Origin: Acarospora socialis
Lineage: Eukaryota; Ascomycota; Lecanoromycetes; Acarosporales; Acarosporaceae
Reading direction: 5' to 3'
Assembly (NCBI GenBank): GCA_025617375.2
Contig: JAMYGW020000011.1
Location: forward strand, 62,001 to 126,000
Length of the DNA: 64,000 nucleotides
The notes beneath the pieces are model-generated. The model was not told the origin of the DNA. It did no database searches and saw only the letters and a program-made list of their open reading frames with translations. This document shows, in pieces, positions 37,250-52,669 of this stretch (within the stretch, counting starts at the first letter, position 1; each line of letters starts with the position of its first letter). The translations under genes were made by a program, and so were the position numbers.

Positions 37250-39558
37250 ATGTCGCAAGATCCGGTCACAACTTTTCTTGGAGATGAGAATACAGCTAGG
37301 ATGGCCTTTGATTCTAGTGGATTATTTGACAAGGTAGTTTCTGCCTTGGAGCCCCAAGCCTCAACCTCGGTGGGGAACAGACATCTTTGCGAATGGTGCC
37401 GTGGCTTAACGTTCGGCAAACTCACAGAGGGTCTCCAAGTACACACCAATCTTGCTGAGCTCGCTGTGTGTGTAAACTTCTGTCCTCTCTGCCACGTGTT
37501 TCTTAAGGCATTGGAGCAACCATCAGAGAATTGGTGGGGTGATGAGGAGGCTTTGCTCACTGATGCTGTCAAAGTGAGACTTGTAAGAAATGCTACTGAT
37601 ATGGGCAAGTTTGCGGAAAGGCTGGAGGTCAGCGTATCTCGGCCGAAGGATGTATGGGAGCAATATCTCGAGGAAAATCCCGATAATCCATACAATCTGG
37701 ATCCAGACGCCAGATTCATAAGATATGTCATAGTATGTGTCGATGAAAGTATAACACAAAATATTCTGTCACTCTGGGCGATTGCTAATGTGGGCCAGAA
37801 CACCCCGTCGCTTCCGAACTGAGAATACGTCCCATCAGGAGGCATGCGGACTGCGAAGAGAACATACAGCTTATGATGAGATGGGTTAAGGATTGCGAAA
37901 CAAATCACGAAGAATGTCGACTTCTGACTGAGGACGAGGACCTTCTCAAACTGCCTGCCCGAGTCATAGACGTTGGTCCTTCAGAAGCATTGCAGGAACC
38001 AGTGCTCCTTCAAACAAACGGCGAACACGGCAAATGGGCAGCACTCAGCTACAAGTGGGGCGAGGCAAGTTTTCTGAGGCTCGTGAAGGACAATTTGCAG
38101 CAATTCATGGGTGGTATACCATTGAAGTCTCTACCAAACACGTTTCAAGACGCCGTCAAGCTAACGCGCAAAATGGGTCTGAGATACCTATGGATTGATG
38201 CTCTGTGTATCATACAAGATTCACATGAAGACTGGCAAGAGCAGTCGGCCCAAATGCCGAATATGTATGCTGGAGCATACGTTACTTTCGCGGTTGCAGC
38301 AAAGGATAGTCCGTTGGATGGTTTGTTTGGAGAGAGGACTTGCAATGGCAGTCCTACCGCGCCGGTTCTACTACATTTAGGAGATGAAGGCACGTTGGAA
38401 TTCACCATGAGACAGCCGTATCATTCCCTAGCAGGTCGTAATGAGCAACATCCTTGGACGAAAGATCATCTGTCAGATCGCGCCTGGTGTCTCCAGGAGA
38501 GGATACTGAGTCGCCGCTTCTTCAATTTTCACCCGACTGAGATGAGCTTTACGTGTGGGCGGCAAATCTTATTGGAATCCTACTATGAGCAGAATCCGGA
38601 TTGGCAGGTCAAACAGCAAGGACCTTTTGGAGCGTACTTGCGCAGATACGACGACGGGGATGGGGCATGGCAAAATGACTTCTTCAAAGCCGTTCACGAG
38701 AGCCGTCGGCCTGGAACGTTTCGGAATCTAAACAGAGACAATGTCTTACAGCAAAGGCAGGAAAAGGACGAGAGGGAACCCAGACTACGATTGTACTCTT
38801 ACCAAACTCCGGAGCTATCGAACGAACAAAAGCTTCACGAACGGTGGTACAATATCTTGGCCGATTACACAGGGCGCAGGTTGACATTCGAGAGAGATAA
38901 ATTAGTCGCCATCTCCGGCGTCGCGAACTACATTCTCCACCAAAGTGGTGGGGTTGATGAATACTGTGCTGGAGTCTTCAAAAGTATGCTGCCTCATGCA
39001 CTCATGTGGAAGATCCCGAAACTGGCCTCTCGAAACGAGCCGTGGACGACCACGAGACCAAGGCAATATAGAGCCCCAAGCTGGAGTTGGGCAAGTCTGG
39101 AGGGCGTCCTGGACTTTGACCGGTGCTGGAAATATCTGCATAAAGCGCCAACGTGTGAGATCCTAAGAATGGAGAGCGCACCTGCTTCCAATCATCGCTT
39201 TCGAGATGTGGGACATGCTAGACTTGTGATCAAGGCCAGGTGTTGGCAAGGTTGGATCACTCCTCACAATGATTTCCTCTGTCGTCCCGATTTCTATGAG
39301 AAGGACGGACAGTACGTCGGAGGTGGCTTTGTGCATCTCGATGACAGACCAAACGAGTACAAACGAGTAGCTTGTCTCGAAATACTCGAGAATCAGGGCC
39401 TGTTACTTGTTGCCACGGAAGTAGATGGTGTCTTTGAAAGATTGGGCATTTATTCAATGAGTAAGGCCACAGCCATAACCCTTGACATGAGGTCTAAGCA
39501 ATTATGGTCAAGAAAAGCAGGACTAATAGTGTTACATTGCAGATGGTGGCTTTCGTGA
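37250..39558 (+). CDS. HET-domain protein with N-terminal Cys-rich region, two exons
   Basis: Exons 37250-37748 and 37799-39558, 752 aa. The 50-nt intron has donor GTATAA, branch GCTAAT and acceptor CCAG. It joins VCVDEK to HPVASELRIRP, restoring the segment that normally precedes the HET domain; without it the first frame stops at 37822. The N-terminus has CEWCRG and CPLCHVFL, the zinc-ligand-like pairs common in this HET subgroup. The HET core (about residues 265-370) has WAALSYKWG, LPNTFQDAVKL, GLRYLWIDALCIIQD, NMYAGAYVTFAVAA, and later DRAWCLQERILSRR. A YRAPSWSWAS motif near the C-terminus is also typical. Probably a self/non-self recognition effector; partner unknown. Confidence 0.88.
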
Positions 39559-42500: not shown

Positions 42501-43846
42501 AGTATCTGACTCAAGAGCTTCCAATGATGCGAATACGGCCTGCGTTGCTGCACTAACTTGGCGTTGGCGTATAGAAGAGGACATGACCGCCTTGCCAGCC
42601 GCAAGAAGGACAGTGATGTCACCGAAAGCACTGAGGAGTGATGGTACGAGTATTGTAAGGTCAAAGGTATTGGATAAGGTGAGGTGTGGTCACAGTAGGT
42701 GAGGTGAGATCAGGTAATATGAGAGACTTACTCACTCTCCGTGCTGAATGTCGACATCGACGCTGCCAGTGTAGCTAAATTCAAGGAGTAAGATCAGGTG
42801 AGGTGATTGAGATCATACCAACATTAGAAGCTGATATCAAACATTACTGTAAGCGCCGCATCATGAAGGAGGTATGTACAAGAAAGTATAGATAATGAAT
42901 CTTGCGGTTATTGATGTATAGAAGTGACCTGCGGGTATTGTGATGTGGAAGGAAGAAGTAGTCAGAGGATGGATGTTGAGTGGTTTTAACAACCTGCGCT
43001 TATTCACTTGAACACCGTACGCCCGAGACAATGAAGCTCTACTGCTCTATGGTTGTGTGAACTGACTACTCTCTGAGGTTAAAATCGTTTTGAAAGGGCA
43101 GGCGGTCGACCTTCTTGTAGGGACGCAGTGACTGGCTTGCCCTAATGCATTGCTGCAAGTGTAGGCCCAGTAGCGCGAAAGAGAGAACAACCTCAGCTTG
43201 GGATATTAGGATACAGGCTGAAGCAAGCATCGTTTTATCTACCACATATAGTGCGAAATGCAGATTATTTCGCCTTCGCCATGCAAAGAACTCGGGTCTT
43301 GAGGATACTAGGAATAGCAATTGCAACGATAAGCTTACGAACCCCGAGATTAAAGCTACCACCCTTCTTCAGCAAAATATACCAGACCCTACCATAAGTC
43401 CACATCACGGATCTACTCGTAAGATCGATTAAGAATGAATGCAGTCCTTTGGCTCGTCCTATCCTGCCTGCCATTCATTCCTAGACCCTGACCAGAATCA
43501 AACTCGTAGGCACGTCACCCACCAATGACGTCGTTCGTAGCGCGCCTAACAAGTAAAACATGGTGGGGCAGAAAGAAACTCCTAAATGGAGGGGTAAACG
43601 AAAAGTAAAAGCCTCACCTCACCAAAAACAAATCGCTCTCCCCAACGACACCCCAATCGACAACACCTACCTCAATCCAGCAAAGACTACGCTCAGATCC
43701 ACACCTCAAAAAACCGTGTTCGTGTCCTTCAAAAACACACCCTCTTCCCACCACCCGCCTTCTGACACTCTCCCACAGTTTCCACCCGCTCATCAAACCA
43801 CTCCTCCCAGCACAAACCCCAAACCCCCCAGCCAATATCAACGACA
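39559..43846. other. Gene-poor region with decayed gene
   Basis: 4.3 kb without an intact gene. 40579-42050 holds a decayed minus-strand gene (separate entry). 39600-40570 shows only short frames. At 42670-42810 a short AGGTGAGGTG unit recurs imperfectly. A hydrophobic minus frame at 43066-43362 (98 codons, GTG at its start) has two or three possible membrane helices but no ATG and no recognisable family. Confidence 0.5.
40579..42050 (-). pseudogene. Decayed gene of unknown product
   Basis: One minus-strand reading frame stays protein-like over most of about 1.4 kb but is broken by several in-frame stops and at least one frame change. The intact-looking 3' end is an exon at 40579-40824 (81 codons, with IDPEYDRTVSLGIERLHNEL and a charged tail), preceded by a canonical intron (40825-40887, GTGAGT, branch GCTAAT, GATAG). 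Upstream pieces include NKFVSFRNHPG..GVHADGE and MQYGFPPTMED. I recognise no domain and see no transposase, integrase or reverse transcriptase motif. It sits beside a HET gene in a gene-poor area. Alternative: a real gene whose extra introns I have not resolved. Confidence 0.45.
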
Positions 43847-44086
43847 ATGTCCGACACCAACGCCCCCAACGCCGCGCGCCAGTCGCCACCGCCCGAAACG
43901 CAATCCAAGGACCAGACCTCGACGTCCGGATCGGGCAACATCTCCGGCGACAAGGGCGACAAAGGTGGCAGCAAGAGCACGGTGGAGCAGGAGAGCAGCG
44001 AGGACACGAAGTTGAGCGGTTTGGAGTCGAATCCCGAGGGCCCACTGGAGGGAGCGGCCAAGGAGAAGGTTAGTAAGGAGCATTAG
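43847..44086 (+). CDS. Small conserved fungal protein of unknown function
   Basis: Single exon, 79 aa, starting MSDTNAPNAARQSPPPE and ending in a charged LSGLESNPEGPLEGAAKEKVSK segment. Both ends match, from memory, a short hydrophilic protein conserved across Pezizomycotina; the middle is Gly/Ser/Lys-rich and disordered. No domain, signal peptide or cysteine is present. The long antisense frames at 43614-44176 overlap it and are rejected because of this conserved-looking start and end. It is separated from the Vip1-like gene by about 460 bp. Confidence 0.65.
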   Translation: MSDTNAPNAARQSPPPETQSKDQTSTSGSGNISGDKGDKGGSKSTVEQESSEDTKLSGLESNPEGPLEGAAKEKVSKEH

Positions 44087-44550: not shown

Positions 44551-45822
44551 TCAGTATTGACCACTCTTCTCAGGAACAGCACCAATGGTCTGCCCGACCG
44601 GAGCGACGCCGGAGGAAGCGGTAATGTCTGCTGCAGGACCGGTCGCCGAGTGCTCGCCGCTGCTGGTGGCGCTCTTTCCGGGTACGGCGCCGACGATTTG
44701 CCCAATGGGGGCGACATGAGAGGAAGCGGTGATATCGGCCGCTGGGCCAGTCGCCGAGTGCTCGCCGGCTGTTGATGAAGACACGTGCGTGTTAGCAGAT
44801 TTCTGACAACCGCTACACGCACGTTTGCCTGCTTGACATGGGCAGTTGCTACTATCACCACCGCAGGAACAGGTCGTTTTCTCGGTGCCGGGGATTTGTT
44901 GCATGTTGTTATTAATGTTCTTTGCGCAACTCCCGCAAGAACACTCGCCCCCTTTGCATTCACACTTCTCAACGTTGCCGCCGCACTTACATGTGGACTT
45001 CTCTCCGTCTCCACCGCTGCTCTTGCCGCTCTTCATGTCGGCTAGACGGCGTGCCTCCGCGTGCACATCACGGACTTGCTTGTCGCCTTGGGTGTAGAAG
45101 GCATGGAGACGTTGACCCGTGGGGGTGCCAAGGGCTTTCTCGAAGTACGAATTCAGGCCACGCCAACCGGCCTGAACCTTCTCTGTAATACCGTAGTTGG
45201 CATCGACGTTCTTCGCCTTCTCGGACGCCTTGTACTTGTTGTCGAAGTTGGTCAGAGCATTGGTGAAACGATTGGAGACGCCGTGCTTGCTGTCGAGAGC
45301 GAGGGCGCGTTGGATGGCTTGGTCACTGATCACGTAACCCTGAGCCAGATACTCTGCCACAATGCGTGAGCGAGGCTTGTCCTCCTGTGCAATGTCGTCG
45401 CCTTCAGCGGTGCTATCGTCGCCATGGTGAGCTTGTTTACTTCCGGTCAACTCGTCGAAACCAGCAGCGCTGGAGACCTGGACTTGAGAAGATCCAAGCT
45501 GGGTGTTGTCGAGTAGGAGGGCAGTCTTTGCAGCACTGCGAGATGTAAGTGGGATGTTCGTAGACAGAAATGGATGCGTCTTACGTTTCCTTCTCAAAAG
45601 TGACGGTGGCAGACTTGGGAGCATTAGGAGCATCGGAGGTCGGAGTGACGGAGAGAGAGGTGATCTTTCCACTAAGATGGACAGCATCTGTCAGTAACAT
45701 AGTCATCTCTGCCACATCTATGGCTATATCATTTTCACCTACCAGAAGCTGAAGAAGTCCCTTACTTCTTTCTCGCTCGTCTCGTGAGAGATATTCTTTA
45801 CGTGAACGGTGGTCGACGCCAT
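44551..45822 (-). CDS. Vip1-like RRM protein with C-terminal metallothionein-like modules, three exons
   Basis: Exons 45743-45822, 45585-45671, 44551-45535; 383 aa. Introns: 71 nt (GTAGGT...TTAG) and 49 nt (GTAAGA...GCAG). Residues 1-80 are an RRM (VHVKNISHETSEKEVRDFFS, FCGKITSL, SATVTFE), then GFDELTG, EDKPRSRIVAEYLAQGYVISD and an amphipathic region ending EARRLADMK, as in fission yeast Vip1. Instead of ending there, the protein continues with two Cys modules: 238-259 (CxCx6CxCx4CxCx2C, 7 Cys) and 278-299 (CxCx6CxCx6Cx2C, 6 Cys), then two 36-residue repeats (GEHSATGPAADITASS). The fusion lies in one uninterrupted exon, so it is not a splice-model artefact. Vip1 role is poorly known; metal binding by the tail is inferred. 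Confidence 0.85.
44570..44775. repeat. Two-copy 108-bp coding repeat at the end of the Vip1-like gene
   Basis: Two adjacent copies encode GEHSATGPAADITASS(H/G)VAP-type units of about 36 residues ending VGAVPxKS. They are near-identical in protein and in frame, so a recent tandem duplication is likely. Confidence 0.7.
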
Positions 45823-49835: not shown

Positions 49836-52669
49836 TCAAGCCTGTACTGCCTCTTCGATCATCCTTTCCCCATCCATTAAGTCGACGCCGATCATAGACA
49901 TCCCCTGAAAGTCCTTCATGTCTTTCATCCAGTCCATATCCAGAGTGAAGCCACTGCTCTCGCCGTGCACAGCCATCGGCATGCCGGTAGCCTGTTCCTC
50001 TCCGAAGGTAAATGGATCCGCCGCTTCTTCAAGGTTGAGGAAACAGTCGAAATCAGAATCGTTTGTGCCCGAAGTCTGGAGGTCGTTGTTTGTAGTCAAG
50101 ATCATACTTGCTAGCCTGGCTTTGCTGTTCTCGTGGAACATGAGATCGGCGTCGTGGTCGATAGCATGCTCACTTTCTGCAGAGCTTGGCGGTGTAGATG
50201 CCATGGAACTTTCAAACTTTACGGCAATATCAATATCATGATCGCTGATGTGTTTTGCAACGTGATCATCGGGTGGAGGAGTCAGAGCGGTCGAGCGACT
50301 GGCACCGACCAAACCGGAAATGTTGGGCACACGTCGTTGCTTTTCTGGCGAGACGTGAGGCGACACTTGAATGTCAACTCTCCTGATGGCAGCTTCGAGA
50401 AATTGGGTCGCATAGTCGGCCGATGCGTAACTTTCTCTTAGTTTCTGCATGACCTGCATGCATTGGCAGAAGCCTTGAAGACTTGCCCTACGCATTTCGT
50501 CATTCGATGCCTTGATATCAAGCAAATGAATGATGACTGCAGGCAGAAGAACCGTCACGCCGGTGGTTGGAAGATATTGTACGAGGTTGAGCTGATGCAG
50601 ATCCTGGGCCGTCCGGGTGATCTCGACTGCCGCATGGCGGACTTGCTTGCGGGAGAGTTCATGCAGCTCAGTGCCGCTGTTGCGAGCAGGCCATGCAGCT
50701 GGCGCCGAAGGTAATACTTGTGGACGGTGAAGAGCGCTGACGGTAGTCCAATAGATCATGTTGAGTAGAGCACGATGTACGATGAAAACTTCGTCTTCGT
50801 TGCCAAGCTCTGTAGGGGAAAGTTCGGGATACCGAAGGTTTTCCGGCAAATCGTGTACCCACCTGTTGAGCTCCAAGTCGCAGAGTTCCACTTCGCATGT
50901 TTCAGCATCCTGCTTCTTGGGAAGGAGCATCATTGTTGTAGTCACGTTACCTTCGGCGGTTACACCACCAAGGTTGTTGTTGAGTACGGAATATTGTGCG
51001 GATAGTACGTGGCTGATACAGAGACAAAGCTTTGCTTTTTCAATGCACATGATTGCAATCTGGCGCCGTTTGTCGCTGTCCCAGGCGAGTGAGCAGTCTG
51101 GCGAAACACAGTTCAATCCGTCTGGGAGCGGCTCAAGCTCGAAATCCTCGAGAGTAAGCATCGGCACGTCATAGTCTTCGTTCTTGATCCGGGTTGGTCT
51201 CCTCATACCCAACGCTATCAGTCGATCACGCATGAAGCATGACCACCATATCCTCTTCCATAGACGTTGCCTGTTACAATCCATATTTGACTTCTCCGGG
51301 TTTCGGTGTAGGCCGATCGTATGCGATAAGGAGATGGCCACGCCCATCCAATGCCATGTGTCCTTCTGGTCATCTGGCGTCTCGTACCAGTACGTCATCA
51401 GTAGTAGCGCCTGAACAAGCGATATGCGGTCGAGCTCGTAGTCAAAATCGTACAGCAACTGCGTTCATATCAGAAGTGAATAGGTCGGAGTCTTGGGCGT
51501 AAGGTCATACCCTAGCTTTGAGAAAGAACGCCTTCCTAGCTTCCTTCCGAGTCGCATAGCCGGCATGACGCAAGTGCTTCACGTCAATAAACGCCGTTCC
51601 AGCGAACATAACCGCCTGGAAGAGGAGCAAGCTGATGGGCTTGGTCGAGCCATCCTGTCTTCCCAATGCGCCTAAAAACTCACGCAGATCCAGCAATGGC
51701 ATGTAGCCATGCACGTACTCGATATATGCCCGGAGAAGTTCATTGCGTAGGTTTGTCCCGGGGATCGACAAGGCTCCTTTCTTATCTAGGTACTCGACAT
51801 CGTCCGGAGTGATCCTCGACGGCAGTGGTTTGAAACAATATGGTAGAGGGACGACTGCATGTTTCTTGGGCAGTAGATACGGATTGAACAGCTGGCCCGT
51901 TCCTGTTAGGGGTAGCAATCCGGGGTGCAGTGTTGCACTTAATGAGGCTCGTCTGTTGCGCTCATGTATACTGAGTCGGTGGCCTTGAGTTTGGTCTGCC
52001 AATCGCCCACGTTAGCTTCGGACACAGTCGAACGGCACCAAGATTGAAGCTCACAGATGAGATGAGGCACGTGCTGCTCATGGTCGCGCTCGGAGTCGTG
52101 CGACAGACATGAGGAAGACAGCGGGGAGAGACATTCGGGGCCACCGCCGAGAGCTATATTACTATTGGTCGCAGTTTTGACACCGTCATTTCTGACAGCC
52201 TCGGCAGCTTCTCTGATCTCGGCATGAATTTGCGACGACGATGAAGCCTGGGTGTTGTCGAATTTGCCCCAGAACTTTCTGTGAACGAGGCGCCAATGCG
52301 CGTCAGTTTCTTCGCTCGCCAACGATACATAAGTTACAGCCGAGGCATGATTTGATGTGTAAAGAAAACACAGCGATTGGCGGATTCATGAGTAGATGGG
52401 CGATCCAGTAGATGGCAATGGAGAACGTACTTTCGGCGTTTAGAATCCTGAACAATGCATTCGACATCATCCAGCCGGCAATTGGTGCAGGGCGCGCCAT
52501 GCTCGACTACATTGCATCGAACTTTCCTGGCCCGACAACAGGCACATGCTTTGGACGCTCTTCTCTTCGCCGGTCTGCCAGAAGGGTTGTTGAATCCCGC
52601 GGTGGAGGCATTCCGCTTCGACGACATGTGGTTATTCGTGGATGATGTAATTGCCATCTTGGTAGGCAT
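49836..52669 (-). CDS. Zn2Cys6 transcription factor, cutinase TF1-beta/FarB-like, four exons
   Basis: Exons 52431-52669, 52055-52314, 51511-51995, 49836-51458; 868 aa. Introns are 116, 59, 52 nt, all with GT...AG ends and in-frame joins (LIYQTQGHRLSIHE at the second, KAR-LLYDFDYEL at the third). The binuclear cluster is C42x2C45x6C52x8C61x2C64x6C71, preceded by GRPAKRRASK. The middle region has LPSRITPDDVEYLDKKGAL and LRNELLRAYIEYVHGYMPLL, then the fungal_trans domain (TYWYETPDDQKDTWHWMG, SHTIGLHRNP, RIWWSCFMRDRL). This layout matches cutinase transcription factor 1 beta and FarB, nuclear regulators of cutin and fatty-acid use; the specific target set is inferred. An acidic, Asp/Met-rich C-terminus could activate transcription. 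Confidence 0.82.

Follow-up and report, generated by a model that had tools for sequence, protein, structure and literature searches.

Two duplicated metallothionein-like cysteine boxes on a presumed Vip1-type RRM protein of Acarospora socialis: a candidate copper-binding tail

Described cysteine boxes and Vip1 proteins

Most metallothionein boxes described from fungi occur as free proteins. Cys boxes that bind copper are also known from copper transcription factors. The Neurospora and Agaricus metallothioneins have the pattern CXC-X5-CXC-X3-CXC-X2-C (PMC4755600). Larger members of this group are built from such units: the Cryptococcus proteins CnMT1 and CnMT2 consist of tandem 7-Cys boxes with spacers, formed by duplication, and Tremella TmMT combines 7-Cys boxes with 6-Cys variants, again arisen by duplication (PMC4755600). 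The same account reports Cu5 clusters for the 7-Cys boxes and assumes that a 6-Cys box takes up four Cu(I). Recombinant fungal boxes take up Zn(II) too, as a mixture of species (PMC4755600). Among the transcription factors, the REP motifs of Mac1 contain five Cys and one His, and REP-I of budding yeast Mac1 acts as a sensor (PMC6354809). The Cys-rich motifs of Aspergillus nidulans and A. fumigatus Mac1 are described as dispensable under copper starvation (PMC6354809); a Cys box may thus be present and yet show no obvious function. For Cryptococcus Cuf1, an Ace1-like Cys-rich region is reported to be required for high-copper sensing and the Mac1-like ones are not (PMC13343922).

The boxes described here are carried by a 383-aa protein with an RNA recognition motif (RRM). 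We provisionally take this protein to be Vip1-type, and no Vip1 model was found among its Pfam or NCBIfam matches. Fission yeast Vip1 and the Pezizomycotina ‘actin cytoskeleton protein VIP1’ have their RRM at the N terminus, a feature in common with the 383-aa protein, and we know of no Cys tail on fission yeast Vip1.

Fission yeast Vip1 is named in an account of 19 classical RNA-binding proteins that tested negative when poly(A)+ RNA was captured (PMC7397868), and it was found in a screen for telomeric RNA regulators (PMC7397868), so that it may bind RNA other than poly(A). The Histoplasma Vip1 protein is tabled among vesicle proteins put down as RNA-associated (PMC6437275), and Paracoccidioides VIP1 is described as observed in the cell wall and in vesicles (PMC10672198). 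Fission yeast vip1 is lower in atf1-deleted cells, in a table that also has zym1 (metallothionein), cox17, gpx1 and ctt1 (PMC8960879); this listing fits a stress-linked protein and says nothing about the tail. A term search of the main text of a two-yeast study of copper and iron responses (PMC1929147) gave no mention of vip1. The combination of an RRM with such boxes was not encountered in the literature searched, which does not prove that it has never been published. Judged by title, no paper found for metallothionein together with vip1 deals with a Cys-rich tail of an RRM-type Vip1; Vip1 is also the name of an inositol kinase and of a plant protein. Such a tail may be common in related fungi and merely unremarked.

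Gene model, RRM and cysteine blocks

The gene occupies the minus strand of the window (the whole stretch of DNA that was analysed, 64 kb) from 45822 to 44551. The splice model joins three exons into 383 codons and a stop in one frame, with two GT..AG introns of 71 and 49 nt. When introns were limited to 40-120 nt and the start was fixed at 45822, this was the single model found to exceed 380 aa.

45743..45822, minus strand: exon 1 of the RRM gene in the splice model, ATG at 45822-45820
45585..45671, minus strand: exon 2 in the splice model, with a GT..AG intron on either side
44551..45535, minus strand: exon 3 in the splice model, encoding the RRM end, the middle region, the Cys tail and the C-terminal repeats, stop at 44551-44553
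45481..45804, minus strand: RRM (Pfam RRM_1), residues 7-74, spanning both introns, with H7, S47 and T49 in place of the canonical aromatics (Pfam and PDB alignment)

The order along the protein is RRM, middle region, 13 Cys in two blocks and a 34-residue repeat present twice, and the middle region and Cys tail both lie inside exon 3. An earlier note, made from the sequence, had placed the RRM and two metallothionein-like Cys blocks in a single reading frame, with the coding link between RRM protein and tail inside one exon. The splice model, the Pfam match and the Cys positions confirm the former point and the continuous frame of exon 3 the latter, with the caveat of an intron-like stretch of 54 nt in block 2. 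A separate adjacent metallothionein gene is disfavoured, because the frame from RRM to tail is continuous in one exon and because the next notable ORF on that side (43766-44086) is on the opposite strand. GC content by codon position was weakly informative (GC3 of 0.55 in the modules, GC of 0.51 in the 3′ flank). The domain combination is real and maintained, and its component parts are already known.

At the N terminus RRM_1 matched residues 7-74 with an E value of 8.4e-10 (Pfam), and the PDB matches of this region include the RRMs of PABP and MIP6. Canonical RNA-binding RRMs carry aromatics at RNP2 position 2 and at RNP1 positions 3 and 5. All three are absent here: H7, S47 and T49 align with Y, F and F, the stacking residues in the third RRM of PABP. 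The ‘normal’ Vip1 RRM of the earlier note is therefore a real RRM which lacks the three canonical RNA-stacking aromatics, and for this reason we regard RNA binding by it as an assumption, and a doubtful one. A Nup35-type RRM also matched the region, below the cut-off (23.8 bits against 27; Pfam).

Thirteen of the 14 Cys in the whole protein fall within residues 238-299, in block 1 (C238, C240, C247, C249, C254, C256 and C259) and block 2 (C278, C280, C287, C289, C296 and C299).

44926..44991, minus strand: metallothionein-like module 1, residues 238-259, CxCx6CxCx4CxCx2C, seven Cys (Cys positions)
44806..44871, minus strand: metallothionein-like module 2, residues 278-299, CxCx6CxCx6Cx2C, six Cys (Cys positions and module comparison)

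The translated gene model thus agrees with the description first given of this tail, 13 Cys in two clusters of which the first is exactly CxCx6CxCx4CxCx2C. Shuffling the 157-aa tail 200,000 times never produced a block of the form C.C(4-6)C.C(2-5)C.C..C, and a six-frame scan of the window (127,996 translated positions) gave only this one. When seven Cys are placed in 22 residues with both ends fixed, the CxC..CxC..CxCxxC form accounts for 11 of 15,504 placements. For comparison, Cys makes up 1.3% over 15 of the 19 long ORFs listed for the window. The tail uses TGC six times and TGT seven times for its Cys, against 51 and 53 in the 15 other long ORFs. A chance origin of the Cys block is rejected by the shuffles and by the excess of silent differences set out below.

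Duplication of the boxes and comparison with metallothioneins

The two modules were compared with each other by shuffling. None of 10,000 shuffles scored as high as the real pair, and only 8 of 10,000 did so when the Cys were held in place; hence the residues between the Cys agree between the modules too. Both share E-K-x-T-C-x-C-G-G at the start and C-x-x-C-x-K at the end. Judged by this comparison, modules 1 and 2 are homologous to each other. At silent sites the two modules have diverged to saturation or close to it: pS is 0.90 and pN 0.35 (Nei-Gojobori), and differing codons are used for 8 of the 11 identical residues, where full saturation predicts 3-9 from the codon use of the window.

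A second duplication lies 3′ of the Cys boxes, where two copies of a repeat with the consensus GEHSATGPAADITASSxVAPxGQxxGAVPxKS occupy 44557-44766 of the window on the minus strand.

44665..44766, minus strand: C-terminal repeat copy 1, residues 313-346 (GEHSATGPAADITASSHVAPIG...), from the repeat comparison
44557..44658, minus strand: C-terminal repeat copy 2, residues 349-382, identical to copy 1 at 27 of 34 residues

In the 31-codon core of the repeats, 19 of the 25 nucleotide differences are at codon position 3, with pS 0.73, pN 0.09, dS 2.6 and dN 0.10 (Nei-Gojobori; Fisher p 2e-9). Across the full 34 codons dN is 0.14, and pS reaches 0.76, from which no distance can be calculated. Differing codons encode 16 of the 27 identical residues, and complete saturation predicts 14-23 (codon use of the window). 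Since silent sites are saturated while replacement changes are few, both duplications appear to be old with their amino acids kept, and the tail looks to be coding, old and under purifying selection. This reading of age and constraint assumes that the duplications arose within this gene, and it concerns one genome, not the number of species sharing the tail. The saturation of the silent sites predicts that the tail is present in relatives of this fungus as well. The earlier note supposes that most Vip1 relatives end without one.

Module 1 has the same layout as the Neurospora and Agaricus pattern, with one residue more in each of the two long gaps (6 and 4 against 5 and 3). It has the 7-Cys CxC-CxC-CxCxxC layout of a family-8 metallothionein, and module 2 has one Cys fewer. 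The family-8 copper metallothionein of Neurospora crassa (1t2y) likewise consists of three CxC and a final C with small residues and Lys between them; it is, however, a free protein of 26 residues, whereas the boxes here belong to a 383-aa RRM fusion and not to the free-standing short Cys-rich protein typical of family 8. CnMT1, CnMT2 and TmMT resemble the 7-Cys and 6-Cys boxes in being tandem duplicated boxes, and differ in being whole proteins made of boxes with prolines, which the boxes on the RRM protein do not have. In the Tremella box, CXCX3CSCPPGXCXCAXCP, the x4 and x2 gaps equal those of module 1.

The proposal that the first cluster nearly copies the Neurospora spacing thus holds as a statement on layout. 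For the sequences themselves, the shuffles gave no significant similarity over that due to composition: against the Neurospora metallothionein, 641 of 10,000 shuffles of module 1 and 725 of 10,000 of module 2 scored as high, rising to 7,550 and 4,262 with the Cys fixed, and a separate run gave 253 and 638 of 5000. When the profile included the Neurospora row, a search of the PDB returned 1t2y at 5.9e-5. The profile of the two modules alone matched no PDB chain, nor did either module by phmmer, and no metallothionein model in Pfam or NCBIfam matched the tail.

We searched the genome (31.1 Mb in 38 contigs) with parts of the gene. Apart from itself, an 84-aa piece of the tail gave a single weak match (E 0.02, 31%, interrupted by two stop codons) that reads as chance, and module 1 found only itself and module 2. 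The C-terminal repeat returned only its own two copies. Besides the three exons of the gene itself, the RRM with the middle region returned a single match at E 0.1. The Neurospora metallothionein as query gave no match in the genome, yet it also missed both modules that are present, so free metallothioneins are possible. PF00131 matched neither this genome nor any of 14 control genomes and is therefore uninformative. Exon 3 had no confirmed relatives in viral (three queries) or prokaryotic (two queries) records, which says nothing about fungi.

Possible roles of the tail and its genomic setting

We propose, with a probability of about one half, that this is a Vip1-type RRM protein with a permanently attached metal-thiolate tail for Cu(I), derived from an old duplication of a Cys box. 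One metallothionein-like box would have been duplicated long ago to give both boxes of the tail. On the model of the Cryptococcus and Tremella metallothioneins, the 7-Cys box would bind about five Cu(I) and the 6-Cys box about four, so that the whole tail would hold about nine, and filling with metal may fold an otherwise flexible tail. The tail would most likely serve to buffer or sense copper locally, at the partners of the protein, be they an RNP, a membrane or a protein scaffold. The conserved repeat behind the boxes is possibly a protein-docking motif, and metal might govern how far it is exposed. With 13 metal-type Cys in 383 residues, the protein is less likely to serve in bulk copper detoxification. 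The stress-granule behaviour raised in the earlier note is a conjecture. More speculatively, the protein might act as a copper switch at the post-transcriptional or scaffold level, in which Cu(I) clusters would fold the tail and alter binding by the RRM scaffold and the repeats, coupling copper to RNP or stress control independently of a transcription factor, with optional splicing of the 54 nt tuning metal capacity; we hold this extended version to be quite improbable. If the copper proposal is true, a two-box tail on an RRM scaffold represents a metal-responsive element in a different layer of the cell, and the question of its role is not lessened if the tail proves widespread in related fungi.

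The alternatives differ either in the chemistry of the tail or in what the gene produces. The paired Cys in each box would also suit a redox tail, whose CxC and CxxC pairs sense oxidation reversibly with metal binding incidental. The familiar redox domains have fewer and more widely spaced Cys, which argues against this. Among the Atf1-dependent genes tabled with fission yeast vip1 are gpx1 and ctt1 (PMC8960879), which suits a redox role, but repeated CxC with Gly, Ser and Lys between is the layout described for fungal metallothioneins (PMC4755600), and we consider a redox tail unlikely. Zn-thiolate clusters in both boxes, as a structural or buffering element, would be consistent with the Zn(II) uptake of recombinant fungal boxes, although as mixed species, but the layout is that of the Cu-thioneins (PMC4755600) and the 506 bp upstream of the gene contain no zinc response element (consensus scan); zinc in place of copper is accordingly rather doubtful. 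That the tail is a non-functional or drifting linker, a view to which its lack of a family match lends something, is hardly tenable given that silent differences far exceed replacement differences in both duplicated parts. It is on this idea of a non-conserved linker that the silent-site excess, although from one genome, would appear to bear.

Two further readings concern the product of the gene and the following features.

44769..44822, minus strand: intron-like stretch of 54 nt, GTGCGT..CTAAC..CAG, in frame and with no stop (motif reading, chance possible)
45034..45036, minus strand: internal Met223 (GCCGACATGA), candidate start of a short tail-only isoform (sequence context)

Module 2 might be partly an intron, with 44822-44769 spliced always or sometimes. 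Removal would delete C296 and C299 and so reduce the 13 Cys to 11 and the second box to four, perhaps giving isoforms of different metal capacity; the reading is compatible with the copper-tail explanation. The stretch has a GTGCGT donor, a CTAAC branch site that ends 22 nt before the end of the CAG, and a length of 54 nt that keeps the frame; its 3′ end abuts C-terminal repeat 1, and the 15 other long ORFs, 23,232 bases in all, contain one comparable stretch. However, such a stretch arose by chance in 338 of 2000 synonymous recodings of exon 3. It also encodes a C-x-x-C-x-K that aligns with module 1 and differs from it silently in three codons, and it is therefore favoured as exon. We judge splicing at this site to be improbable. 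Far less probable still is a tail-only product, in which a start at Met223 would give a small separate two-box metallothionein and the fusion would be a by-product: Met223 lies directly before the tail in an acceptable context (GCCGACATGA), but the reading frame runs on continuously from the RRM.

In its way of working, the proposed copper tail may be compared with Mac1 and the copper-fist regulators, which also have two C-terminal Cys-rich copper-binding boxes on a nucleic-acid-type protein. Those regulators have a copper fist and REP motifs, whereas the 383-aa protein has neither: the copper-fist PF00649 was absent among its five Pfam matches up to E 10, and its boxes have 7 and 6 Cys and no His in place of five Cys and one His. 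Two copper-fist matches occur elsewhere in the same genome. About 1.2 kb downstream of one of them, on the same strand, lies a Mac1-type motif of five Cys and one His, CNCGSGCECLGCAAH (CxCx3CxCx2Cx2H; L012, base 2753 on the minus strand), in a 529-aa open frame. With two copper-fist matches, one of them accompanied by CxCx3CxCx2Cx2H, the genome has ordinary copper regulators besides the 383-aa protein.

A scan of the 506 bp upstream of the gene with consensus sites gave one degenerate ACE1-like site, one TGACGT and one AGGGG, and no zinc element or Mac1 core. Downstream, the convergent small ORF at 43766-44086 on the plus strand had no Pfam match over its C-terminal 79 residues (MSDTNAPNAARQ...). 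Of the seven neighbour proteins scanned, four were without a Pfam match at E 0.001. Those with Pfam assignments are a HET-domain ORF (37873-39555, plus), a cytochrome P450 (32614-33903, plus) and an ORF with a fungal-specific transcription factor domain (49839-51458, minus). The P450 ORF (32614-33906, plus) contains a stretch of 58 nt with a GTAAGC donor, a CTGAC branch site and a TAG end, possibly a real intron.
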